NCBI GenBank assembly: GCA_002706335.1
Contig: PAKZ01000006.1
Location: forward strand, 1-64,000
Reading direction: 5' to 3'
From: Ahrensia sp.
GTDB taxonomy: Bacteria; Pseudomonadota; Alphaproteobacteria; Rhizobiales; Rhizobiaceae
DNA length: 64,000 nt
A program made the translations under genes and the position numbers. Below the pieces are notes generated by a model, which saw only the letters and a list, made by a program, of their open reading frames with translations, did no database searches and was not told the origin of the DNA. How positions within the stretch are numbered: the stretch's first letter is position 1; the number at the start of each line of letters is the position of its first letter. This document shows positions 35,340-61,341 of this stretch, piece by piece.

Positions 35340-35369
35340 TTGACACCCTGCCGCAACGACGCCTATTGC
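35340..35369 (+). promoter_or_regulatory. Promoter of the cobalamin-riboswitch operon
   Basis: Consensus TTGACA (35340-35345) is followed after 18 bases by TATTGC (35364-35369). Transcription would begin near 35376, exactly where the riboswitch fold begins. The preceding 35198-35339 stretch shows no ORF. Confidence 0.65.
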
Positions 35370-35374
35370 TGGAG

Positions 35375-35576
35375 ATACATGGTTCCCGCGATGCCGAGCG
35401 CGAAGCGGGATGAAAAGGGAATGTGACGGGCGGACCCAATCAGGGCGTCCACATCACAGCCGACCCCGCGACTGTAGAATGGCGCGGCGCCAATCTCCCG
35501 CAAATGGGAGCGCCACTGGAAATATCCGGGAAGGCGATGGCGTCGAAAGAACCGCCAAGAGCCAGGAGACCTGCCA
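35375..35576 (+). ncRNA. Cobalamin (AdoCbl) riboswitch
   Basis: The hallmark boxes occur in order: GGTTCCC near 35381, GATGAAAAGGGAA near 35409, CCCGCGACTGTAGA near 35465, GCCACTG near 35512, and the B12 box AGCCAGGAGACCTGCC at 35560-35575. It lies 58 bases before cbtB. In rhizobia this RNA represses the downstream genes when adenosylcobalamin is abundant. It probably controls the whole cbtB-cbtA-cobU-cobW-cobN chain. Confidence 0.95.
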
Positions 35577-35633
35577 TGTATCCGGACGGCAATCGCCGTC
35601 TTAACGACAGGCCTGAGCAACACGGAGGTTGTC

Positions 35634-35826: not shown

Positions 35827-36519
35827 ATGTTGAGCAGGATCGTTCTTGCCGCTTTGGCGGCAGGGCTGCTGGCTGGCGCGTTCGCCACGGCGGCTCAAAC
35901 CGTGCGTGTCATCCCGCTTATCCTCGCGGCGGAAGCCTATGAGGACGAGGGCGCTCATTCCCATGAGGCGCATGCGGAGCACGCAGAGGCGTGGGCTCCC
36001 AGCGACGGGTGGCAGCGTACTTTCTTCACGTTCATTTCCAATCTCGTGGTCGGCGTGGCGTTTTCTTTGCTGCTGACCGCCGCGATCATGCTTCTCAACC
36101 AGCCGGTTTCGATGACGACCGGGCTGCTATGGGGCGCGGGCGGTTTCGCGGTCTTCGTTCTGGCGCCGAATTTCGGCTTGCCGCCGGAACTGCCCGGCAT
36201 GGCTGCCGGCGATCTCGTCGCCCGGCAGATCTGGTGGTTCGCGACGGTCGCAATGACTGCGGCGGGGCTTCTGATCTTCGCCTTCAGGCGTTCGATCGCC
36301 TGGATGCTGGCCGGACTGGCGCTCATTGTCGCGCCGCATGTCTATGGCGCGCCGAGACCTGCTTCGCATGAATCGGCGGTGCCGGCCGGTCTCGCCGCGG
36401 ACTTCGTGATGGCGACGATCGTGACATCGGCTCTGTTCTGGCTGGTGCTTGGCGGATTGCTGGGACACTTCCTTTCGCGTGCGACCCGGGCCGAAGAGGC
36501 TTTGGGGAAGAATGGGTGA
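35827..36519 (+). CDS. cbtA: CbtA: cobalt transporter subunit
   Basis: A 230-residue membrane protein with about five to six helices. An early His/Glu-rich loop ([18 protein letters not shown]) in residues about 38-57 would bind cobalt. The family segments [37 protein letters not shown] and [13 protein letters not shown] are all present. It starts 10 bases after cbtB. cobU overlaps its 3' end by eight bases, so cobalt import is translationally linked to cobalamin assembly. Confidence 0.92.
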
Positions 36520-37033
36520 CCTGCAAAACGTAACGCTTGTCCTCGGCGGCGCGCGTTCGGGCAAATCGGCCTTCGGCGAAAAGCTGGTTGCAGAGAGCGG
36601 GCTTGCGCCGGTCTATCTTGCGACCAGCGAGCCGCGCGACGACGAGATGGCGACCCGGATCGCGCATCACCGCGCGCGGCGCGGGCCCGAGTGGACGACC
36701 CTTGAAGAACCGGACGATCTGGAAGGGGCGCTTCAACGCACAGCGCAATCGGGGCGTGTGATACTGGTCGACTGCCTGACACTGTGGATCACGAATCTGA
36801 TGATGGCGGAAGCCGACATCGCGGCCCGTAGCGCGGCGCTCTGTTCGGTACTTGCAGGCATTGGCGGCCCGGTGGTCCTGATTTCCAACGAGGTCGGCCT
36901 CGGCATCGTGCCGGACAACCGCATGGCGCGCGAATTTCGCGACCATGCCGGGCGTCTGCACCAGGATGTCGCCGCGATTGCCGACACGGTCTATTTTGTC
37001 GCGGCGGGCCTGCCGCTGAAAATGAAGGGATAA
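36512..37033 (+). CDS. cobU: Bifunctional adenosylcobinamide kinase / adenosylcobinamide-phosphate guanylyltransferase
   Basis: A 173-residue CobU/CobP enzyme that phosphorylates adenosylcobinamide and then transfers GMP to it. The P-loop [12 protein letters not shown] lies near residue 12, and [23 protein letters not shown] and [21 protein letters not shown] follow in the usual order. Start at 36512 ([13 protein letters not shown]) overlaps cbtA by eight bases. Longer starts are out of pattern. cobW begins four bases after the stop. In rhizobia the gene is often called cobP. Confidence 0.94.
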
Positions 37034-37037
37034 CAAG

Positions 37038-38093
37038 ATGCAGTCCAAGATACCGGCTACGGTGATCACCGGGTTCCTCGGCGCGGGCAAGACGACGATG
37101 ATCCGCAACCTGCTGGAAAATGCCGGTGGGCGGAAGATCGCACTGATCATCAACGAGTTCGGCGATCTCGGCGTCGATGGCGAGGTGCTGAAGGGCTGCG
37201 GTATCGAGACCTGCGGCGAGGACGATATCGTCGAGCTGAACAATGGCTGCATCTGCTGCACGGTGGCGGACGATTTCATCCCGACCATGGCGAAGCTGCT
37301 GGAGCGCGAGAACCGTCCGGACCATATCGTTATCGAGACATCGGGGCTGGCGCTGCCGCAGCCGCTGGTTGCCGCCTTCAATTGGCCGGACATCAAGACG
37401 GCCGTGACGGTGGACGGTGTTATAACCGTGGTCGACGCCGCCGCCGTTTCCGAAGGCCGGTTTGCCGACGACCACGACAGGCTGGAGGCGCAGCGCGCAG
37501 CCGACGAGGCGCTGGATCACGAAAGCCCGCTCGAAGAACTGTTCGAGGACCAGATACGCGCCGCCGACATGGTGGTTCTGAACAAGGCCGACCTGATCGA
37601 CGCCGGCCGCCTGGAAGCGGTGCGGTCCAATGTGGCCGGTCAGACCGACCGGGCGCTGAAGATCGTGCATGCGACGCAGGGAAAATTGCCGGCCGAGGTG
37701 CTTCTCGGGCTGGATTCGGCGACCGAGGACCAGATCGCGCTGAGAAAGTCGCATCACGAGATGGAGCATGAGGACGGCGTCGATCATGACCATGATCACG
37801 ACGAATTCGAGAGCTTCGTCGCCGAGACGGGCGCAATTTCGGATCCGAACGCTTTCGTCGCGGGGCTGAAGGAGATCATCGCGCGCCATGACGTATTGCG
37901 CCTGAAGGGCTTTATCGACGTGCCGGGCAAGCCGATGCGCCTCGTCGTGCAGGCGGTCGGCCAGCGCATCGAGACCTATTTCGACCGGCCGTGGCGGTCG
38001 GGTGAGGGCCGCTCGACGAAGCTGGTGGTGATCGGCTTGCATGACATCGACCAGAAAGCGATTGGCGAGGCCATTGCCGCCGCGGCGGGCTGA
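37038..38093 (+). CDS. cobW: CobW: GTP-dependent metallochaperone for cobalt chelation
   Basis: A 351-residue COG0523 GTPase. The P-loop GFLGAGKTT lies at residues 10-18, the metal-binding CxCC in NNGCICCTV near residues 72-75, and the base-recognition NKAD near residue 183. A His/Asp-rich stretch (HHEMEHEDGVDHDHDHDEF) near residues 238-256 probably binds metal. CobW is thought to deliver Co(II) to the CobNST chelatase. The stop overlaps the cobN ATG by one base. It belongs to the riboswitch operon. Confidence 0.95.
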   Translation: MQSKIPATVITGFLGAGKTTMIRNLLENAGGRKIALIINEFGDLGVDGEVLKGCGIETCGEDDIVELNNGCICCTVADDFIPTMAKLLERENRPDHIVIETSGLALPQPLVAAFNWPDIKTAVTVDGVITVVDAAAVSEGRFADDHDRLEAQRAADEALDHESPLEELFEDQIRAADMVVLNKADLIDAGRLEAVRSNVAGQTDRALKIVHATQGKLPAEVLLGLDSATEDQIALRKSHHEMEHEDGVDHDHDHDEFESFVAETGAISDPNAFVAGLKEIIARHDVLRLKGFIDVPGKPMRLVVQAVGQRIETYFDRPWRSGEGRSTKLVVIGLHDIDQKAIGEAIAAAAG

Positions 38094-38629
38094 TGCATCT
38101 CCTCCTCGCGCAGAAGGGTACGCTGTCGGACGGCGACGGAGAGGCGGTCGATCTCGGCCAGACGCCGGGCGATCTCTGCTTCCTGTCGGCAGCCGATACG
38201 GAGCTGGCGAGCCTCGCCAATGCGCATGGCGGCGAGGAGCCGACGCTTCGGCTAGTCAACCTTCTGCAGCTGAAACATCCGATGTCCGTCGACACATGGG
38301 TCGAGCGGACGGGCCGGCATGCGAAGCTGATCGTGATCCGTATCCTCGGCGGGGCGGGCTACTGGCCCTATGGGCTGGAGGCGATCCATGCGGCGGCGGT
38401 CGATCACGGGATCAAGCTCGCGGTGCTGCCGGGCGATGACAAGCCTGACCCGGGGCTTACGCGGTTCTGCACGCTTCCCGCCGAGGCCTGCGAGACGCTG
38501 TGGCGATTCCTGATCGAGGGCGGGGCGGAGAATGCGCGCGGTTTCCTCGATGCCTGCGGCGACGTTCTGGCGGGGAACGAGATCGAGGGCGAAGCGGCGC
38601 CGCTGCTGAAGGCGGGGGTGTTCGGTTTA

Positions 38630-38685
38630 CCCCCCTCTGCCCCTGACGGGACATCTCCCCCACAAAGGGGGAGAGTGGCGGGTGG
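38630..38685. repeat. Palindromic repeat copy A inserted in frame in cobN
   Basis: A 55-base element, CCCCCTCTGCCC...ACATCTCCCCC...GGGGGAGAGTGG, nearly identical to the copy at 40328. It encodes a Pro/Gly/Ser/Arg-rich stretch (PPSAPDGTSPPQRGRV) without shifting the frame. It belongs to the class of rhizobial intergenic palindromes but here lies within a gene. Confidence 0.8.
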
Positions 38686-40327
38686 AACCGTCGCCATCGT
38701 CTTCTACCGGGCGCTGGTGCAGTCCGGGCAGACAGCGCCGATCGAGGCGCTGGCTAAGGCGCTTTCCGTGCGAGGGTTGGCGGTTTTGCCGGTATATGTC
38801 TCCAGCCTGAAGGACCCGGTATCGGCGGCGACGGTGGAGGCGGTGTTCGATACGCACCGGCCGGATGTTGTGGTGAACGCTACCGGCTTCGCTGTGTCCG
38901 CGCCGGGGGCGGACCGGATGCCGACCGTACTGGAGCGAGACGGAGCGCCGGTAATCCAGGTGGTGCTGTCCGGCTCGCCGAAAGAGGTCTGGGAGGCATC
39001 GCCGCAGGGGCTGAATGCACGCGATCTCGCCATGAATGTTGCGCTGCCGGAAGTGGATGGGCGGGTTTTGTCGCGCGCGGTGTCGTTCAAGAGCGCGAGC
39101 TCGTGGGACACGGCGACGGAGTGCAATATCGTCACGCATGAGCCGGTGGCGGACCGGGTCGCGTTCGTCGCGGATCTGGCGGCGCGCTGGGTGCGGCTGC
39201 GGCGCAGACCTGTCGAGGAAAAGCGCGTTGCCATCGTGCTGGCCAATTATCCGAACCGGGACGGGCGGCTCGCCAACGGCGTCGGGCTGGACACGCCGGC
39301 CGGGACAATCGAAGCACTGAAGGCGATGGCCGAGGCAGGCTTTCCGGTCGGCGATATCCCGGCGGATGGCGACGCGTTGATCGACCATTTGAAGAAGGGG
39401 CCGACCAACGCCGTGAGCGAGGCGCGGGAGATCCGCGAGACGATTTCGCTGAATCAATACAAAGGCTTCTTCGGCGGGCTTCCGAGAGCGATTCAAGCTC
39501 AGGTGACTTAGCGTTGGGGCGAGCCGCAGAGCGATCCGTTTTTCCGGGACGACGTCTTCGCGCTGCCGTTGGCGCGGTACGGCGAGACCTTGGTCGGCAT
39601 CCAGCCGGCGCGCGGCTACAACATCGATCCGAAGGAGACCTACCATTCGCCGGATCTCGTGCCGCCGCATGGCTATCTCGCCTTTTACGCCTATCTGCGC
39701 GGGATCTACGGCGCGGACGCGGTCGTCCATATGGGCAAGCACGGCAATCTGGAATGGCTTCCCGGCAAGGCGCTGGCGCTCTCGGAGACGTGCTGGCCGG
39801 AAGCCGTTTTCGGGCCGCTGCCGCATGTCTATCCATTCATCGTCAACGATCCGGGCGAGGGCACGCAGGCCAAGCGGCGGACATCGGCGGTCATCATCGA
39901 CCACCTGACGCCGCCGCTGACGCGCGCCGAGAGCTACGGGCCGCTGAAGGATCTGGAGGCGCTGGTCGACGAATATTACGAGGCGGCGGGCGGCGATCCG
40001 CGGCGTCTCAAGGGTCTGAAGGTTCGCATTCTCGATCTGGTCCGCGATATCGGTCTCGACCACGACGCCGGGATTGCCGATGGCGATGAAACCGATGCGG
40101 CGCTGGAGAAGCTGGACGCCTATCTCTGCGATCTGAAGGAGATGCAGATCCGCGACGGGCTGCATATTTTCGGACGCGCGCCGGAGGGGCGTCTGTTGAC
40201 CGATCTGGTGACCGCGCTGGCGCGGGTGCCGCGGGGATTGGGCGAGCGAGCTGACCAGAGCCTGCAGCGGGCGATTGCGGGGGATGTTTTTGGTCCAGAA
40301 GCCCTTTCTGCGGGCATCGGCGCCGGA

Positions 40328-40489
40328 CCCCCCTCTGCCCATGACGGGGCATCTCCCCCACAAGGGGGGAGAGTGGAGGCTGGGGGCGACTCCTCCGCTC
40401 AAAACGGGAAAATCGGGAAGCCGGCGTTGCTGTCACCTCCACTCTCCCCCCTTGCGAGGGAGATGTCGGCGCGGTCGCCAGAGGGGAGG
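40328..40489. repeat. Composite palindromic repeat (copy B, two inverted units) inserted in frame in cobN
   Basis: The first unit (40328-40379) repeats copy A. The second (40436-40489) is the same sequence inverted, so the two form arms of about 50 bases around a 56-base centre. The whole block is read in frame and gives a low-complexity Pro/Ser/Gly/Arg insert of about 60 residues (PPQGGRVEAGG ... LLSPPLSPLAREM). It looks like a complete mobile mosaic element. Confidence 0.82.
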
Positions 40490-42036
40490 ACGCCGAAGGC
40501 GAGGGAGGACGGGCTCTTCGACCCCCTCGACTGCGATATGGGCTCACCCTGGACCGGGCCAAGGCCGGACATCCTAGAAGCGGTTTCCGACGATCCCTGG
40601 CGCACCAATGGCGATACGGTGGAGCGGATCGAACTGTTGGCTGCGGGCCTCGTCGGTGGCGAGATCGAATGCCCGCCGGATTGGGCGAGGACGCAAACAG
40701 TGCTCGACGGGATCGACAAGCGGCTCAGGCCGTCGGTGGAAGCTTGCGGAAGGTCCGAGATCGACGGGCTGATGGCGGCGCTTGGCGGGCGGTTCGTCGA
40801 ACCGGGGCTGTCGGGGGCGCCAACGCGGGGGCGGCCGGACGTGTTGCCGACGGGGCGCAATTTCTATTCCGTCGACAGCCGCGCCGTGCCAACCGAGACG
40901 GCGTGGGAACTGGGCAGGAAATCCGCCGAATTGCTGGTGACGCGCTATACGCAGGACCATGGCGAATGGCCGGTCTCGTTCGGGCTGACGGCGTGGGGCA
41001 CGTCGAACATGCGCACCGGCGGCGACGATATCGCCCAGGCGATGGCGCTGATCGGTGCGAAACCCGTCTGGGACGGCATCTCGCGGCGGGTGACCGGGTT
41101 CGAGATCATACCTGTCGCCAAGCTCGGTCGCCCGAGGGTGGATGTGACGCTTCGCATCTCCGGCTTCTTCCGCGATGCATTTCCGGACCAGATCGCGCTG
41201 TTCGACAAGGCGGTGCGAGCGGTCGGGACGCTGGAAGAGGATGAGGGTGACAACCCTGTCGCGGCGCGGATGCGCGCCGAGGCCGCGCGGCTGGTGCAAG
41301 AGGGCGAAGACGCGGAGACCGCGGCACGACGGGCCGGCTACCGGGTGTTCGGCTCGAAGCCCGGTTCCTATGGCGCGGGGTTGCAGGCGCTGATCGACGA
41401 GAAGGGATGGGCCGGCAAGGCGGATCTCGCCGAGGCCTATCTCGTCTGGGGCGGCTACGCCTATGGCGCGCAGGCCGAGGGCAGCGCCGAGCGCGGGCTG
41501 TTCGAGGAACGGCTCAAGGGGATGCAGGCCGTTGTGCAGAACCAGGACAATCGCGAGCACGATCTGCTCGATTCCGACGATTATTACCAGTTCGAAGGCG
41601 GCATGACGGCGGCGGTGGAAACGCTGAAGGGCGAAGCGCCGACGGTCTATCACAACGACCATTCGCGACCCGAACGGCCGGTGGTTCGCACGCTGGAGGA
41701 GGAGATCGGCCGGGTGGTGCGGGCGCGCGTCGTCAATCCGAAATGGATCGCCGGGGTGATGCGACACGGCTACAAGGGCGCTTTCGAGATGGCGGCGACC
41801 GTCGACTACATGTTCGCCTTCGCGGCGACGACCGGTGCGGTGCGCGACCATCATTTCGAGGCCGTCTACCAAGCCTATCTGATGGACGAGACAGTGCGGG
41901 ACTTCATTGCGGACAAGAACCCCGATGCGCTGCGCGAGATGGCGGAGCGGCTGCGTGAAGCGATTGATCGCGGGCTGTGGACCCCGAAAAGCAATTCGGC
42001 GATGTTTGCGCTGAAAGAAATGAGCGGCAGGACTTT

Positions 42037-42468
42037 ATGAGCGGTATTGAAATCACTGTCCTTGACGGCGCGTCGAAAGACCTCGACGATCAGCTTGTCG
42101 ACCTACTCGAAACGCATTCGGAAGAGGCCGGCAGTCCGTTCGTGGAAACCGACGTCAGCATAAAGGCGACCGAAGCGGGAAAGCTGCTCGGCGGTTTGAC
42201 CGGCAAGGCTCATCTCGGTTGGCTCTATGTGAAGCTATTGGCGATGGCGCCCGAGGCGCGGGGTCATGGCGTCGGCGCGAAGTTGATGCGGCGCGGCGAG
42301 GAAGTCGCCCGCGAGATGGGACTCGTCGGCGTCTATCTCGACACTTATGACTTTCAGGCGCCGGGCTTCTACGAAAGGATCGGCTACACCGAGATCGGCC
42401 GGCTGGCGGCCGCTGGCGGTCATCCGCAGCGGATATGGTTCCGGAAACTGTTTTTGGCGGCGGCATGA
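42037..42468 (+). CDS. GNAT family N-acetyltransferase (copy 1)
   Basis: A 143-residue GNAT acetyltransferase. The acetyl-CoA loop is in EARGHGVGAKLMRRGEEVAREMG near residues 72-95, preceded by the strand HLGWLYVKLLAMAP and followed by YLDTYDFQAPGFYERIGY. Its ATG overlaps the cobN stop (ATGA), placing it in the riboswitch transcript. The downstream gene is a clear paralogue. Substrate unknown; such genes are often passengers in cob operons rather than pathway enzymes. Confidence 0.87.
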   Translation: MSGIEITVLDGASKDLDDQLVDLLETHSEEAGSPFVETDVSIKATEAGKLLGGLTGKAHLGWLYVKLLAMAPEARGHGVGAKLMRRGEEVAREMGLVGVYLDTYDFQAPGFYERIGYTEIGRLAAAGGHPQRIWFRKLFLAAA

Positions 42469-54271: not shown

Positions 54272-55402
54272 ATGCTCAAAGGAATCAAGGCCGGGCCGAG
54301 CCACGGGATCATGGTTTGCGGTCATGGCAGCCGCAACCAGAACGCCGTGGGCGAATTCTCCAAGCTGGCGATCCGGCTGCGCGAGCGCTTTCCGCAATGG
54401 CCTGTCGATTATGGCTATCTCGAATTCGCCAATCCGGTTTTGCACAAGGGGCTGGACGCGCTGAAGGAGAAGGGCGTCGACCATATCCTCGCCGTGCCCG
54501 GCATGCTGTTTGCCGCAGGCCACGCGAAGAACGATCTGCCGTCGGTCTTGAACAGCTACCAGGCGAAAAATCCCGATGTCAGAATCGATTACGGGCGCGA
54601 GCTCGGTATCGACCTGAAGATGATCCGCGCCGCCGGGGCGCGTGTGCAGGAGGCGCTCGACGCCTGCGACAGCGAGGTGCCGATGGAGGAGACCATGCTG
54701 GTCGTCGTCGGCCGCGGCGCTTCCGATCCCGACGCCAATTCCAACGTCGCCAAGGTGATGCGCATGCTTTGGGAGGGCATGGGTTTCGGCTGGGGCGAGA
54801 CCGCCTATTCGGGCGTGACCTTCCCGCTGGTGAAGCCGGCGCTGCAGCATGCAGCCAAGCTCGGCTACCGGCGCATCGTGGTCTTTCCCTATTTCCTGTT
54901 CACCGGCGTGCTGGTGAAGCGCATCTATTCGCAGACCGACGAGGTGGCTGCCGAGCATCCGGAGATCGAGTTCGTCAAGGCGCCCTATCTGAACGACCAC
55001 GATCTGGTGATCGAGACATTCGTCGACCGCGTGCGCGAAATCCTCGACGGCGTGAACAACATGAACTGCCAGATGTGCAAATATCGCGAGCAGGTTCTGG
55101 GCTTCGAGGCCGAGGTCGGTCAGGCGCAGGAGAGCCATCACCATCACGTCGAAGGCGTCGGCGGTGCGCCGGCAAACTGCCCCTGCAACGGCGATTGCGA
55201 CGGGCGCTGTCGCGACGAGGCGTTCTGCCGGGAACACGGGATCGAGTGGACGCCGGTGCATGCACATGATCACGGCCACGATCATGAGCATGACCACCAT
55301 CACGGTCACGATCATTCCCACGACCATGGCCATGATCACCATCCCTATCCGCATGCCGATCACCCGCTCGGGCCGAAGAGCATGGAAAAGGCGAAGGGCT
55401 GA
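54272..55402 (+). CDS. cbiX: CbiX-family sirohydrochlorin cobaltochelatase with C-terminal His-rich tail
   Basis: A 376-residue two-domain CbiX. The first half has GIMVCGHGSRNQNAVGEF (catalytic His 18) and HILAVPGMLFAAGHAKNDLPS; the second has VVVGRGASDPDANSNV and VVFPYFLFTGVLVKRI. A Cys-rich segment with MNCQMCKYREQ near residue 265 and CPCNGDCDGRC follows, then a tail near residues 330-362 with about 18 His alternating with Asp (HAHDHGHDHEHDHHHGHDH). Such M-x-C-x-x-C/His tails occur in long CbiX proteins and may hold an Fe-S centre and store cobalt. It inserts cobalt early into sirohydrochlorin, or acts as a cobalt chaperone. First gene of the corrin-ring operon; cobH follows after six bases. 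Confidence 0.92.
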   Translation: MLKGIKAGPSHGIMVCGHGSRNQNAVGEFSKLAIRLRERFPQWPVDYGYLEFANPVLHKGLDALKEKGVDHILAVPGMLFAAGHAKNDLPSVLNSYQAKNPDVRIDYGRELGIDLKMIRAAGARVQEALDACDSEVPMEETMLVVVGRGASDPDANSNVAKVMRMLWEGMGFGWGETAYSGVTFPLVKPALQHAAKLGYRRIVVFPYFLFTGVLVKRIYSQTDEVAAEHPEIEFVKAPYLNDHDLVIETFVDRVREILDGVNNMNCQMCKYREQVLGFEAEVGQAQESHHHHVEGVGGAPANCPCNGDCDGRCRDEAFCREHGIEWTPVHAHDHGHDHEHDHHHGHDHSHDHGHDHHPYPHADHPLGPKSMEKAKG

Positions 55403-55408
55403 GGCCGG

Positions 55409-56041
55409 ATGATGATGGACTATGTCCGCGAGCCGGAATCGATCTACAAGCAGTCGTTCGAGATGATATCGCGGGTCGAGCAGCTGCAGGCGCTTCCCGA
55501 AGCGATCCGACCGGTGGCGACGCGTATCGTGCATGCCTGCGGGATGCCGGAGATCCTCGGCGACCTGCGGTTTTCGGATGATATCGCGGAGGCCGTGCCG
55601 GACGCGCTGGCGGCGGGGGCGGACATTTATTGCGACGTGGAGACGCTGCGCTACGGGGTGATGAAGCATCTGCTGCCGGAGGGCTGCGCGCTGCATTGCC
55701 GGATTTCCGCGCCGGACGTGGCGAGCCATGCGAAAGCCAACCGCATGACGCGAGCGTCGGCGCAGATCGATCTCTGGGGCGAGCGCCTTGGCGGCCAGAT
55801 CGTCGCCATCGGCAATGCTCCGACGGCCTTGTTCCGGCTGCTCGAATGGATCGACGCGGGCGGCGCAAAACCGGCGGCGATAATCGCCTTGCCGGTCGGA
55901 TTCGTCGGCGCGGCCGAATCGAAGGCGGAACTGGCGCGCGATCCGCGCGGCGTACCCTTCATCACGCTTCTCGGCCAGAAGGGCGGGGTCGGGATGACGC
56001 AGGCTGCCGTCAACGGTCTGGCCGGGGGGCTGAACACATGA
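55409..56041 (+). CDS. cobH: Precorrin-8X methylmutase
   Basis: A 210-residue CobH/CbiC that moves the C-11 methyl of precorrin-8X to C-12, giving hydrogenobyrinic acid. The catalytic His lies in RIVHACGM (residue 42), and DVETLRYGV, IGNAPTALFRLLE and VGFVGAAESKAEL match the family. Three ATG codons in a row make the start uncertain by one or two residues. It overlaps cobL by four bases, in the tightly coupled cobHLIJM chain. Confidence 0.94.
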   Translation: MMMDYVREPESIYKQSFEMISRVEQLQALPEAIRPVATRIVHACGMPEILGDLRFSDDIAEAVPDALAAGADIYCDVETLRYGVMKHLLPEGCALHCRISAPDVASHAKANRMTRASAQIDLWGERLGGQIVAIGNAPTALFRLLEWIDAGGAKPAAIIALPVGFVGAAESKAELARDPRGVPFITLLGQKGGVGMTQAAVNGLAGGLNT

Positions 56042-57240
56042 GCGCGCCATGGCTGCATATCGTCGGCATCGGCGAGGACGGTATGGACGGGCTGTCGGCG
56101 CAAGCACAGAAGCTGGTCGGCGAAGCGGAAGTGATCGTCGGGGGCGACCGCCACCATACGCTTGCTCCGAATGTCACGGCCAAGCGCATTGCCTGGCCGT
56201 CGCCCTTCGACGCGATGATCGAGGAGATCAAAAGTCACAAGGGACGGCGCGTCGTCGTGCTGGTGACGGGCGATCCGCTGTGGTTTTCGGTTGGCTCACG
56301 CATCATCCGAGGTATTCCCAAAGAGGAAGTCGTCTTCCATCCGCAATTGTCGGCCTTCCAGTTCGCCTCATGCCGGATGGGATGGTCTTTGGCCGATGTT
56401 GAAACACTGACAGTGCATGGCCGCGCCGCCGAACAGATCATCCCCTGGTTCGCGCCCGATCAGCGGATACTGTTGCTGACCAAGGACGCGAGTTCTCCGG
56501 GCACGGTGGCGCGATTGTTGACCGAGCGCGGCTACGGTCCGTCGAAGCTCACCGTGCTGGCGGCGCTGGGCGGGCCGAACGAGGCGCGGTTCGACGGGGT
56601 GGCCGAAGACTGGGATCGGACGGTTCCGGATTTCCATGTTCTGGCGGTCGAGATTATCGCCGGTCCGGATGCGCAGGTGCTGCCACGCACCGGCCTGCCG
56701 GACGACGTGTTCACCCATGACGGCAAGATCACCAAACGCACGGCACGGGCGTTGGCGTTGGCGAAGCTGGTGCCGGTGCGCGACGGCATGCTTTTGGATG
56801 TCGGCTGCGGTTGCGGTTCCATCGCCATCGAATGGATGCGCGGCGCGCCGGAAGCCCGGGCTATCGGCATCGAACCGCAGGAAAAGCGCCGTGTCATGGC
56901 GGAAGAGAACGCGGTGAAACTCGGTGCGCCGAAATTTCAGCTGGTCAACGGCACCGCGCCTGAGGCACTTGCCGGATTGCCCGTGCCTGATGCCGTCTTC
57001 ATTGGCGGCGGCATTTCACGAGCGACGATCGAGGCCTGCATGGATGCGCTTAAGCCGCACGGCAGGCTTGTGGCGCACGCCGTGACGCTGGAGAGCGAGG
57101 CGGTGCTGCTTGAGACATTCAACGCGCATGGCGGCGAGTTGCAGCGAATGTCCACCGAGACGGCGGAGCCTGTCGGACCGTTTCATGGCTGGAAGCCCTC
57201 CATGACGGTGACGCAATGGGCATGGGCGAAGAAGCCATGA
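56038..57240 (+). CDS. cobL: Precorrin-6Y C5,15-methyltransferase (decarboxylating)
   Basis: A 400-residue bifunctional enzyme. The N-terminal half is a CbiE-type tetrapyrrole methylase (WLHIVGIGEDGMDGL, VLVTGDPLWFSVG). The C-terminal half (residues about 235-395) is a CbiT-type methyltransferase/decarboxylase with LLDVGCGCGSIAIEWM and FIGGGISRATIEACMDAL. It methylates C-5 and C-15 and removes the C-12 acetate carboxyl. It overlaps cobH and cobI by four bases each (ATGA junctions). Length is typical of fused CobL. Confidence 0.95.
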   Translation: MSAPWLHIVGIGEDGMDGLSAQAQKLVGEAEVIVGGDRHHTLAPNVTAKRIAWPSPFDAMIEEIKSHKGRRVVVLVTGDPLWFSVGSRIIRGIPKEEVVFHPQLSAFQFASCRMGWSLADVETLTVHGRAAEQIIPWFAPDQRILLLTKDASSPGTVARLLTERGYGPSKLTVLAALGGPNEARFDGVAEDWDRTVPDFHVLAVEIIAGPDAQVLPRTGLPDDVFTHDGKITKRTARALALAKLVPVRDGMLLDVGCGCGSIAIEWMRGAPEARAIGIEPQEKRRVMAEENAVKLGAPKFQLVNGTAPEALAGLPVPDAVFIGGGISRATIEACMDALKPHGRLVAHAVTLESEAVLLETFNAHGGELQRMSTETAEPVGPFHGWKPSMTVTQWAWAKKP

Positions 57241-57977
57241 CCGGAACGCTTTACGGGCTGGGCGTTGGGCCGGGCGATCCGGAACTGCTGACGCTGAAGG
57301 CGCACCGCATCCTCAAGGCGTGCCCGGTGGTCGCCTATCCGGCGCCCGATACGGGCGAGAGCTTCGCACGGTCGATCGTGGCGGAGTTCCTGTCGCCCTA
57401 TCAGGTCGAAATTCCGATCGTGGTGCCGATGCGCACGGAGCGCTTTCCGGCGGCGGAGGTCTATGACAAGGCGGCCGACGAAATCGCGGCGCAGCTGGAT
57501 GCCGGCCGTGATGTGGCCGTGCTGTGCGAGGGCGATCCGTTCTTCTACGGCTCCTTCATGTATGTGTTCGAGCGGCTGGGCGGGCGGTATTCGACGGAGA
57601 TCGTGCCCGGCGTGTCGTCGATCATGGCGTCAGCGGCGGCGGCCAAACGCCCGCTGGCGGCTCGCAATGACGTGCTGACGGTTCTGCCCGGACCGCTTGA
57701 CGACGACGAGTTGCAGGCGCGGATCATGATCTCGGATGCGGTCGCGATCATGAAGGTCGGCCGGCACCTGCCGCGCATTCGCGCGCTGATCGCCCGGCTC
57801 GGCCTGACAGGCGCTGCGGCCTATTGCGAGCGGGTCAGCCTGGGGGAAGAGAAAATCGTGCCGCTGGAATCGCTTGGTGCGGAAACCGCACCCTATTTCT
57901 CGATGATCCTGATCTATCGCGGCGGCGAGGAGTGGATCCGAACGCTTGCCGCCGGCGGAGCTTCCGATGCGGCCTGA
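57237..57977 (+). CDS. cobI: Precorrin-2 C20-methyltransferase
   Basis: A 246-residue tetrapyrrole methylase. LYGLGVGPGDPELLTLKAHRIL at the start, VAVLCEGDPFFYGSFMYVFERL and IVPGVSSIMASAA are diagnostic of CobI. It methylates precorrin-2 at C-20. The start at 57237 (MTGTLYGLGVG) overlaps the cobL stop by four bases; an earlier in-frame Met is not in family register. The next gene overlaps its 3' end by 11 bases. Confidence 0.95.
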   Translation: MTGTLYGLGVGPGDPELLTLKAHRILKACPVVAYPAPDTGESFARSIVAEFLSPYQVEIPIVVPMRTERFPAAEVYDKAADEIAAQLDAGRDVAVLCEGDPFFYGSFMYVFERLGGRYSTEIVPGVSSIMASAAAAKRPLAARNDVLTVLPGPLDDDELQARIMISDAVAIMKVGRHLPRIRALIARLGLTGAAAYCERVSLGEEKIVPLESLGAETAPYFSMILIYRGGEEWIRTLAAGGASDAA

Positions 57978-59802
57978 CAACAAGACACCCGCCATCGTCA
58001 TTTTGAGCGATGCGGCGATGCCGGTTGCCGAAAAGGTCCGCGACGCGATTGGCGGGACGGTGCATGGCGCGGCGAAGCGTGTTTCGCCTTCGCAAGGCGT
58101 CGTGCTTTTCAATGAGACCAAGGGGCAATTGCAGGCGCTGTTTCGCGACGGCGCGCCGATCGTTGCCGTGATGGCGTCGGGAGCGGTGATCCGCATGCTC
58201 GCGCCGCTGCTGGCGGACAAGCAGGACGAGCCGGCGGTTATCGCGGTGGCGGAAGACGGTACTGCCGTGGTGCCGCTGCTCGGCGGCCATCATGGCGCGA
58301 ACGAGCTGGCGCGAGATATCGCAGCGGCGCTCGACGCAGAGGCGGCCATCACGACGGCCGGCGATCTGCGGTTCGGTGTGGCGCTGGATGCGCCGCCGGA
58401 GGGTTATGTGCTGGCAAATCCGGAAAATGCGAAGGCAGTCATGGCGGATTTGTTGGCCGGGGCCGGTGTCGTGGTGAAAGGCGTGGCGCCCTGGCTGGAG
58501 GAAAGCGGGCTCGGTTTTGCGGATGACGGCGAGGTCATTCTTGCGGTCACCGACCAGGTTGTGGAGCCGGCATCGAACGAGCTTGTCTATCATCCGAAGA
58601 CGCTGGCGCTCGGTCTCGGCTGCGAACGCGGCTGCGATCCCGAAGAAGCATGGGCCCTGGCGCGCGATACGCTTGCCAAGGCCGGGCTGGCGGAGGGGGC
58701 GGTGGGTGTCGTCTGCTCGCTCGATGTGAAGGCCGATGAAGCGGCGGTGCATCACGTTGCCAGGAAGCTCGGCGTGCCGGCTCGGTTCTTCGATGCGGCC
58801 ACATTGGAAGCCGAGACGCCGCGATTGAAGAATCCCTCCGACATCGTCTTCGCCGAGGTAGCTTGCCATGGCGTTGCAGAGGGGGCCGCGCTGGCGGCTG
58901 TCGGGTCGGCGGGCGAACTGGTCGCCGAGAAACGCAAATCGGCGCGCGCGACCTGCGCCATAGCTCGTGCACCGCAGCCATTCACGGAAGCCTTATTGCC
59001 GGGCCGGGCGCGGGGCACGCTTTATGTCGTAGGCATCGGGCCGGGTTCGGAGGGGTGGCGGTCGCCGGAGGTCAGTCGCATGGTGGCAGCGTCGACCGAT
59101 CTCGTCGGCTATTCGCTCTATCTCGACCTGCTCGGACCGCTGGCCACAGGCAAGACCCGGCACGATTTCGATCTCGGCAAGGAAGAGGATCGCGTGCGCC
59201 ATGCGATGGAACTGGCGGGCGAGGGGCGCGACGTCGCGCTCGTCTGCTCGGGCGACGCCGGGATCTACGCCATGGCGACGCTGGTGTTCGAACTGATCGA
59301 CAGGAAAGGCGTGTCGGATGCGGCGCGGCGGATCGAGATCGCGGTCTCGCCCGGCATATCCGCGCTGCAAGCTGCTGCCGCGCGGGCCGGTGCGCCGTTG
59401 GGCCATGATTTCTGCACCATCTCGCTCTCGGATCTGCTGACGCCCTGGGAGGATATCCAGCGGCGGGTGCGCGCGGCGGGCGAGGGGGATTTTGTCGTCG
59501 CCTTCTACAATCCGGTATCGAAGAAGCGGCGGATGCAACTTGCTTGGGCGCGCGATGAACTCTTGAAACACCGCCCGGCCGAAACGCCGGTGATCCTCGC
59601 GACCAATCTCGGCCGCGACCGCGAAGCGGTGCGCGTGGTGCCGCTCGGCGAATTGAACGTCGACGATGTGGATATGCTGACCGTTGTCGTCGTCGGGTCG
59701 TCTGACAGCCGGACGGTCGAGACCGGCGACGGGAAGAACTGGGTCTATACCCCGCGCGGCTATTCCGGAAAGGCCGGAACGCAGATGGAGAAAGCCGGAT
59801 GA
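57967..59802 (+). CDS. cobJ: CbiG-CobJ fusion: cobalt-precorrin 5A hydrolase / precorrin-3B C17-methyltransferase
   Basis: A 611-residue fusion. Residues about 1-330 are a CbiG domain (VVLFNETKGQLQALF, ASGAVIRMLAPLLADK, LGLGCERGCDPEEAWALA), which opens the lactone ring in the anaerobic pathway. Residues about 350-600 are a CobJ methylase (LYVVGIGPGSEGWRSPEV, VALVCSGDAGIYAMATLVFEL, TISLSDLLTPWEDIQRR, FVVAFYNPVSKKRR). The linkage is Ala/Arg-rich. CbiG fused to CobJ beside CobL, CobM and CbiX shows a hybrid pathway. Starts at 57967 after CGGAG and overlaps cobI. cobM follows with an ATGA overlap. Confidence 0.93.
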   Translation: MRPDNKTPAIVILSDAAMPVAEKVRDAIGGTVHGAAKRVSPSQGVVLFNETKGQLQALFRDGAPIVAVMASGAVIRMLAPLLADKQDEPAVIAVAEDGTAVVPLLGGHHGANELARDIAAALDAEAAITTAGDLRFGVALDAPPEGYVLANPENAKAVMADLLAGAGVVVKGVAPWLEESGLGFADDGEVILAVTDQVVEPASNELVYHPKTLALGLGCERGCDPEEAWALARDTLAKAGLAEGAVGVVCSLDVKADEAAVHHVARKLGVPARFFDAATLEAETPRLKNPSDIVFAEVACHGVAEGAALAAVGSAGELVAEKRKSARATCAIARAPQPFTEALLPGRARGTLYVVGIGPGSEGWRSPEVSRMVAASTDLVGYSLYLDLLGPLATGKTRHDFDLGKEEDRVRHAMELAGEGRDVALVCSGDAGIYAMATLVFELIDRKGVSDAARRIEIAVSPGISALQAAAARAGAPLGHDFCTISLSDLLTPWEDIQRRVRAAGEGDFVVAFYNPVSKKRRMQLAWARDELLKHRPAETPVILATNLGRDREAVRVVPLGELNVDDVDMLTVVVVGSSDSRTVETGDGKNWVYTPRGYSGKAGTQMEKAG

Positions 59803-60581
59803 CAGTCTATTTCATCGGAGCCGGACCAGGCGCACCGGACCTGATCACCGTGCGCGGACTGCGCCTGATCGAGCGTTGCCCGGTGTGCCTCTATGCCGGT
59901 TCGCTGGTGCCCGAGGAGATCGTGCAGGCCGCGCCGTCGGATGCACTGGTGATGGATACCGCGCCGATGCATCTCCACCAGATCGTCGAGGAAATGGCGA
60001 AGGCGCATGAGGCCGGGCAGGACGTCGCGCGGGTGCATTCCGGCGACCCGTCGATCTATGGCGCGGTGGCCGAGCAGATGCGGCGGCTCGATGCGATGGG
60101 GATCGACTATGAGGTCGTGCCGGGCGTGCCCGCTTTTGCCGGAGCGGCGGCGAAGCTGAAGACCGAACTGACGCTGCCTGAAATCGCGCAGACGATCATC
60201 GTGACCCGCACCGGCATGAAGGCGTCCTCGATGCCGGAAGGCGAGCAACTGGAAGTGCTCGGCCAGTCGGGCGCGACACTTGCGATCCATTTGTCGATCC
60301 GCAATCTGGATTACGTCCGGCGCGCGCTGGAGCCCTATTATGGCGCGGACTGCCCGGTGGTGATCGCCTATCGCGCGACATGGCCGGACGAACTCTATAT
60401 CCGCACGACGCTGGCCGAGATGCGCGACCATGTGCGCGAGGCCAAGATCACCCGCACGGCGCTGATCTTCGTCGGCAAGGTGTTCGGCGCGGTGGAGTTC
60501 CGCGATTCCGATCTCTACAACTCGGATTTCTCGCACGTGCTGCGCAATCGCGGGAAGAAGAAGGCGATTAGCGCCGATTGA
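59799..60581 (+). CDS. cobM: Precorrin-4 C11-methyltransferase
   Basis: A 260-residue tetrapyrrole methylase. YFIGAGPGAPDLITVRGLRLIE opens it, followed by CLYAGSLVPEEIV, RVHSGDPSIYGAVAEQMRRL and PGVPAFAGAAAKLKTEL, all diagnostic of CobM/CbiF. It methylates C-11 of precorrin-4. Start and overlap with cobJ (ATGA) are clear. It is the last gene of the chain. CobK, CobG, CobF and CobB are not in this window. Confidence 0.95.
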   Translation: MTVYFIGAGPGAPDLITVRGLRLIERCPVCLYAGSLVPEEIVQAAPSDALVMDTAPMHLHQIVEEMAKAHEAGQDVARVHSGDPSIYGAVAEQMRRLDAMGIDYEVVPGVPAFAGAAAKLKTELTLPEIAQTIIVTRTGMKASSMPEGEQLEVLGQSGATLAIHLSIRNLDYVRRALEPYYGADCPVVIAYRATWPDELYIRTTLAEMRDHVREAKITRTALIFVGKVFGAVEFRDSDLYNSDFSHVLRNRGKKKAISAD

Positions 60582-60661
60582 CGTCCGTCATCGCGAATTG
60601 TGGCGGGACCCTGACATCTTCGATCCTTATTTCACTGTCCCAATCGTTGGAGGTGACGGCA

Positions 60662-61021
60662 ATGATCGAATTCATGGACGAAAGTACCGATAAATATCTG
60701 GGCGTCAGGATCAGCGGCAAGCTGACGGACGAGGACTACAAGAACGTCCTGGTGCCCAGGCTGGAAGAAGCGTTCAAGAACTACGGCAAGCTCGACTTCC
60801 TCGTCCATATGGACGGTTTCGAGGGCTGGGATGCGCATGCTGCCTGGGACGATATGAGCTTCGGTCTCCAGCATGCCGGCGATTTCGACAAGTTGGCGGT
60901 CGTCGGCGGGCCGAAATGGGTCGAATGGGCCGTCAAGGCATTCCGCTTCATGTTCAAGGGCGAGGTGCGAACCTATCAGGATGATCAGCTCGAAAAGGCC
61001 TGGGAATGGGTCGCCGGCTGA
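60662..61021 (+). CDS. STAS/SpoIIAA-like protein (DUF3478)
   Basis: A 119-residue small soluble protein of the SpoIIAA-like (STAS/SEC14-type) family. The fold pattern is YLGVRISGKLTDEDYKNVLVPRLEEAF, LDFLVHMDGFEGWDAHAAWDDMSFGLQHAGDFDKLAVVGGP and FMFKGEVRTYQDDQLEKAWEWV. Members often respond to stress; partners are unknown. The start at 60662 is preceded by GGAGG; longer frames add 28 residues out of pattern. The next small gene starts 26 bases after its stop and is probably cotranscribed. Confidence 0.87.
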   Translation: MIEFMDESTDKYLGVRISGKLTDEDYKNVLVPRLEEAFKNYGKLDFLVHMDGFEGWDAHAAWDDMSFGLQHAGDFDKLAVVGGPKWVEWAVKAFRFMFKGEVRTYQDDQLEKAWEWVAG

Positions 61022-61047
61022 CGGCCGATAACAAAGGAGAAAAGACA

Positions 61048-61341
61048 ATGACGATCAAGGAAAGTCTGTCGGAACTGCGCGGCCGTATCGACGACCTGCA
61101 GAAACGCCTCGGTGACAAGGAGTCCGAGTTCAGCAAGGATGAGCGCGTGCCGGCGGAGCACCGCGCCAAGGTCGACGCCATGCAGGCGCAGGCTGAGGCG
61201 GTGAAGGAGAAACTGCCGACAGAAGAGAATTCCGTCTGGGACGCGGTCAAGCACGAAGTCCAGCGTGATATGGATGCGCTCGCCCAGGATTTCGAGCACA
61301 CCGTCTCCTATATCGACGCCCATTTCCGCGAGCAGAAATAG
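61048..61341 (+). CDS. Small coiled-coil hypothetical protein
   Basis: A 97-residue, charged, helical protein without Cys or membrane segment. It begins MTIKESLSELRGRIDDLQKRLGD, with heptad-like Leu/Ile/Met spacing through the first 70 residues, and ends in SYIDAHFREQK. AAAGGAGAAA lies before the ATG. It appears cotranscribed with the STAS gene. No named family is recognised; it resembles small proteobacterial stress-type proteins. Confidence 0.72.
   Translation: MTIKESLSELRGRIDDLQKRLGDKESEFSKDERVPAEHRAKVDAMQAQAEAVKEKLPTEENSVWDAVKHEVQRDMDALAQDFEHTVSYIDAHFREQK

Follow-up and report, generated by a model that had tools for sequence, protein, structure and literature searches.

A probable, very recent nonsense allele of a single-copy cobN in a draft alphaproteobacterial genome

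Introduction

The closest described counterpart of the gene analyzed here is CobN, the large subunit of cobaltochelatase (TIGR02257; solved chains 9uk9 and 7c6o). The window (the whole stretch of DNA that was analyzed, 64,000 nucleotides long) carries a cobN gene that resembles it in its full-length match, with cobW adjoining upstream and cobS and cobT located elsewhere in the genome. It differs by a TAG past residue 472 and by short in-frame inserts derived from a repeat.

Two further kinds of system invite comparison. Recoding is known for chlD, the gene of a related chelatase subunit in the chelatase family; chlD has a conserved frameshift signal (PMC9227772), whereas cobN has an in-frame stop in one genome. 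The other kind is the recent bacterial nonsense allele, which shares with our locus a single stop, intact flanks, relatives without the stop and an unchanged dN/dS, with no notable difference between them. The cobN TAG looks like an ordinary finding of this type or like a base-calling error, and not like a novel form of decoding. On cobN in connection with pseudogenes and premature stop codons, the literature search listed one paper, which concerns M. tuberculosis (PMC12713380).

The cobN frame and its interruption

The features around the stop are the following (window coordinates, all on the plus strand):

35363..35592, +, cobalamin riboswitch upstream of cbtA-cobP-cobW-cobN (RF00174, 94.9 bits)
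36449..37033, +, cobU/cobP (NF004469, 215.8 bits)
37038..38093, +, cobW, upstream neighbor of cobN (TIGR02475, 555.6 bits)
38093..39508, +, cobN before the stop, 472 aa (TIGR02257 positions 1-469, 487.2 bits)
39509..39511, +, in-frame TAG within cobN, sharing its phase with the ATG at 38093
39512..42040, +, cobN after the stop, 842 aa with a TGA end (TIGR02257 positions 472-1220, 1196.7 bits)

The gene run cbtA-cobP-cobW-cobN sits behind the riboswitch, and the final base of cobW is the first base of cobN (38093). The frame from 38093 to 42040 comprises 1316 codons, counting the internal TAG and the final TGA (42038-42040). Read across the stop, it matches TIGR02257 (1226 model positions) end to end with 1705.6 bits. 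The curated whole-protein cut-off of this model, 822.05 bits, is reached by the full frame and by the C-terminal part (1196.7 bits), while the N-terminal part alone (487.2 bits) falls below it; against the solved chain 9uk9_A the C-terminal part scores 1333.5 bits and the N-terminal part 648.7 bits. Because the halves cover model positions 1-469 and then 472-1220, the junction involves neither loss nor duplication. The original prediction of a single TAG in an otherwise intact cobN is borne out, since both halves jointly span the CobN model. Judged by these alignments, cobN is one gene with one stop, the halves of which continue one family gaplessly and beyond chance.

PF02514 has a single match in the source genome (G000), a draft of 5.1 Mb in 46 contigs, which rules out a second intact cobN copy in this assembly. 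The TAG lies 39.5 kb inside a 188-kb contig, counted from its start. CobS (664.4 bits) and CobT (1053 bits) are both encoded elsewhere in the genome by stop-free genes.

Homologues at the stop site

None of the 109 homologous loci, all of which cover the site, has a stop there (with four identical pairs among them, they amount to 105 distinct sequences), so that the change is absent from relatives, as is characteristic of a nonsense pseudogene. The TAG had been described as lying within a conserved stretch, which holds for the stretch but not for the residue column itself. The latter is variable, with A in 49 loci, E in 28, D in 13, G in seven, S in four, T and Q in three each, and N and K in one each. 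All five congeners have Glu at this position, encoded by GAG in two and by GAA in three. By the codon usage of the stretches read, no single-step route to a stop is commoner than GAG to TAG (0.12), and routes to TAG make up 0.538 of all one-step routes. A single substitution in a Glu codon, as originally proposed, is hence the simplest account.

Over the order, 253 of 297 genomes have a CobN match at E <=1e-100. An internal stop was found in one of 79 among the CobN matches listed, namely that of G000. Among 150 matches listed from a larger number, those of G000 and G221 were flagged for a stop; in G221, the TGA turned out to be the natural gene end and no interruption.

By kinship, G000 is congeneric with G004, the cobN coding sequence of which is identical to that of the Oricola sp. 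HH_bin22 record, and we infer that G000 is an Oricola-type bacterium. For an Oricola bin, B12 synthesis genes have been described, along with B12 proteins in the proteomes of the bin and of a Synechococcus; the main text of that study does not mention CobN (PMC7029141).

Selection on cobN and the age of the stop

The dN/dS of cobN is 0.08-0.12 between G000 and its congeners and 0.10-0.15 in the other ten congener pairs, with purifying selection acting alike on the N- and C-terminal parts on either side of the TAG. The gene counts 12 amino-acid singletons in G000 versus 14 in the sister genome (branch support 0.83), and 33 versus 25 synonymous singletons. Relaxed selection since inactivation was thus not seen in the dN/dS of G000 against its five congeners, and a nonsense pseudogene would be at most very recent; an old pseudogene is ruled out by the same test. 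Unchanged purifying selection on both sides implies that the stop is either very recent or not real: cobN is a gene that was fully selected until very recently, or still is.

We consider it fairly probable that the TAG is a very recent nonsense allele of the sole cobN, truly present in the cells that were sequenced. A single base change, most simply from a Glu codon, would have created the TAG in the only cobN of this genome, and translation would stop past 472 residues, ahead of the larger C-terminal part. As the C-terminal part would not be made, CobNST would be left without a working large subunit. Cobalt would still be inserted early through a CbiX-L type enzyme (see below), or B12 would be taken up, and the change would be too recent for other decay to show.

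Second comes an error in the consensus or assembly, behind which the genome would encode an uninterrupted CobN with a sense codon at the site; this strikes us as less likely, though it deserves serious weight. It predicts what is seen in cobN, i.e., no other decay and unchanged selection, and a single-base miscall would look alike, the TAG having been seen in a single draft (46 contigs). The assembly also seems to miss some genes, since no tRNA-Ile was found in it. On the other hand, a G-to-T excess is lacking among the cobN singletons (14 of 72 in G000 versus 15 of 63 in the sister genome), which also disposes of a mutator or oxidative G-to-T signature. The remaining arguments come from other stops in the assembly.

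A second interrupted gene and scans for further stops

A second in-frame TAG is located in ntrY (contig C9:31754, plus strand; locus L157:11754). The NtrY_N profile matches with positions 6-197 ahead of this TAG and with positions 211-290 past it. The gene was matched in 20 of 21 genomes, and the best match in each of the 19 others is stop-free, with Pro at the site in nine, Ala in two and other residues in eight; four of the five congeners have Pro. The G000 assembly thus shows more than one nonsense allele. A Pro codon is two steps away from TAG, and the ntrY stop is therefore not a one-base miscall of the commonest codon of its relatives, which weakly favors real mutations over isolated miscalls in this genome. 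That both stops are TAG is not striking, because the expectation for this is about 0.29 (0.538 squared).

A reference-free scan of 464 kb for stops inside genes flagged 13 of 753 stops. Five of these were singly examined: those in cobN and ntrY are real interruptions and three separate genes from each other. With changed thresholds, a scan of 1,663,445 bases flagged 65 of 4518 stops, one of them being that in cobN. The checks covered 18 further pairs out of these 65 and found no family spanning the stop; three of them are the separate genes of the smaller scan, and among the other 15 the downstream piece lacks a family in 14, which leaves the separateness of these 14 unproven. The larger scan missed ntrY and is hence non-exhaustive, and it addresses in-frame stops only. 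Within the stretches read, the proven stops inside families are two, and the assembly accordingly does not look error-ridden, which speaks against a consensus error in cobN.

Readthrough and gene fission

Functional readthrough or recoding, in which the TAG would be decoded as a residue of full-length CobN, would agree with a frame that is intact and selected on both sides of the stop and with the occurrence of an amber codon in two conserved genes of one genome. The original prediction offered dependence on readthrough as one outcome and suggested a search for an amber-suppressor tRNA. That search, which addressed ordinary tRNAs rather than unusual ones such as pyrrolysine tRNA, came out negative: a CUA anticodon occurs in none of the 45 tRNA places that Rfam matched and ARAGORN rescanned, nor did a direct scan of 1,663,445 bases (20 tRNAs) reveal one. 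Release factor 1 is present (493.1 bits), TAG terminates 184 of 785 open reading frames of at least 300 aa, and the conservation of the stop expected of programmed readthrough is absent from all 109 loci. The tRNA set, the release factor and the terminator usage, together with the unconserved stop, led us to reject recoding; dependence on readthrough is not supported, and we regard functional readthrough as very improbable. More improbable still is a variant in which natural UAG readthrough without a dedicated suppressor tRNA would yield some full-length CobN and NtrY, a low level of CobN sufficing while CbiX makes cobalamin by the early route.

The tRNA list of G000 includes no tRNA-Ile. It is therefore incomplete, and some genes seem to be absent from the assembly, perhaps together with an rRNA operon.

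Gene fission, in which the N- and C-terminal parts are made separately and work together, appears to us the least probable reading. The sequence is kept in both halves, as it would predict, but the cut falls inside a continuous stretch, and stops are absent from every aligned piece of the 109 loci. The nearest in-frame starts past the TAG are TTG at 39569 (19 codons on), TTG at 39590 and GTG at 39659, followed by ATG at 39731 (73 codons on), and inspection by eye revealed no clear ribosome-binding site at any of these four. Without a start bearing such a site, fission was rejected, and the recent nonsense allele stays our preferred explanation.

CbiX and the corrin cluster

The effect of such an allele would depend on other routes of cobalt insertion. 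Two genes of a corrin cluster downstream of cobN are relevant here:

54272..55402, +, early chelatase of the CbiX-L type, bearing an MXCXXC motif and a His-rich tail (PF01903, 178.8 bits, two stretches)
57946..59802, +, CbiG-CobJ fusion in the same corrin cluster as CbiX (PF11760, PF01890, PF00590; TIGR01466, 282.4 bits)

An early chelatase, CbiX, had been predicted about 15 kb away from the stop, and the PF01903 match indeed lies at 14.8 kb. CbiX-L proteins belong to the CbiX family and have a His pair in the N-terminal half, an MXCXXC motif and a His-rich tail (PMC7689651). The protein encoded here has H18 in GHGSRN, H84 in GHAKND, MNCQMC at 264 and a His-rich tail from residue 330; no NCBIfam model matched it at 1e-20. 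It shows all of these CbiX-L traits and, going by sequence, fits a predicted cobalt enzyme. An alphaproteobacterial CbiX is known as a siroheme ferrochelatase (PMC4063343), and insertion of cobalt rather than iron is accordingly a prediction here.

The other genes of the cluster encode CobH/CbiC, CobI, CbiG-CobJ, CobM, CbiD, CobK, CobB, CobD, CbiB and CobA, and a further gene with two domains is probably CobL-like, a name derived from these domains. No CobG above the cut-off was found in G000 (best match 142.4 versus 234.8 bits), and no CobZ either (84.6 versus 372.55 bits, with 31 of 54 candidates scored). The weaker CobG matches are presumably related reductases. In a set of 41 genomes, 17 carry this CbiX, G000 among them, and 14 have a CobG over the cut-off, no genome having both; a match to the CobZ model over its cut-off occurs in two of the 17 (G001 and G002). 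The region 54272-61341 of the window thus combines CbiX-L with CbiD and CbiG-CobJ, CobG not being over the cut-off, yet CobN, CobS and CobT are also encoded in the genome.

The original prediction supposed that CbiX might make a loss of CobN tolerable. A cobalt-type CbiX, as its sequence traits suggest, may buffer such a loss. PF02514 is present in 16 of the 17 CbiX genomes; setting G000 aside, 15 of the 16 others keep CobN, and among the congeners its gene is under purifying selection. CobN is thus probably useful in these bacteria, and losing it may carry a cost, which is a point against a real nonsense allele. The wider puzzle of which chelatase works, weightier than the allele itself, lies with these relatives, where a cobalt-type CbiX coexists with CobN and CobG over the cut-off was not found.

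The nonsense allele as such carries little weight beyond annotation: a check is called for before G000 is counted among the genomes with an active CobNST. A real TAG would make the strain a natural cobN mutant in which to test the roles of both chelatases.

Palindromic repeats in cobN

Copies of a G+C-rich palindromic repeat, in frame and translated, are located within cobN at window positions 38629-38685, 40327-40383 and 40436-40467. Three of the five places at which this repeat was found in 464 kb fall in cobN.
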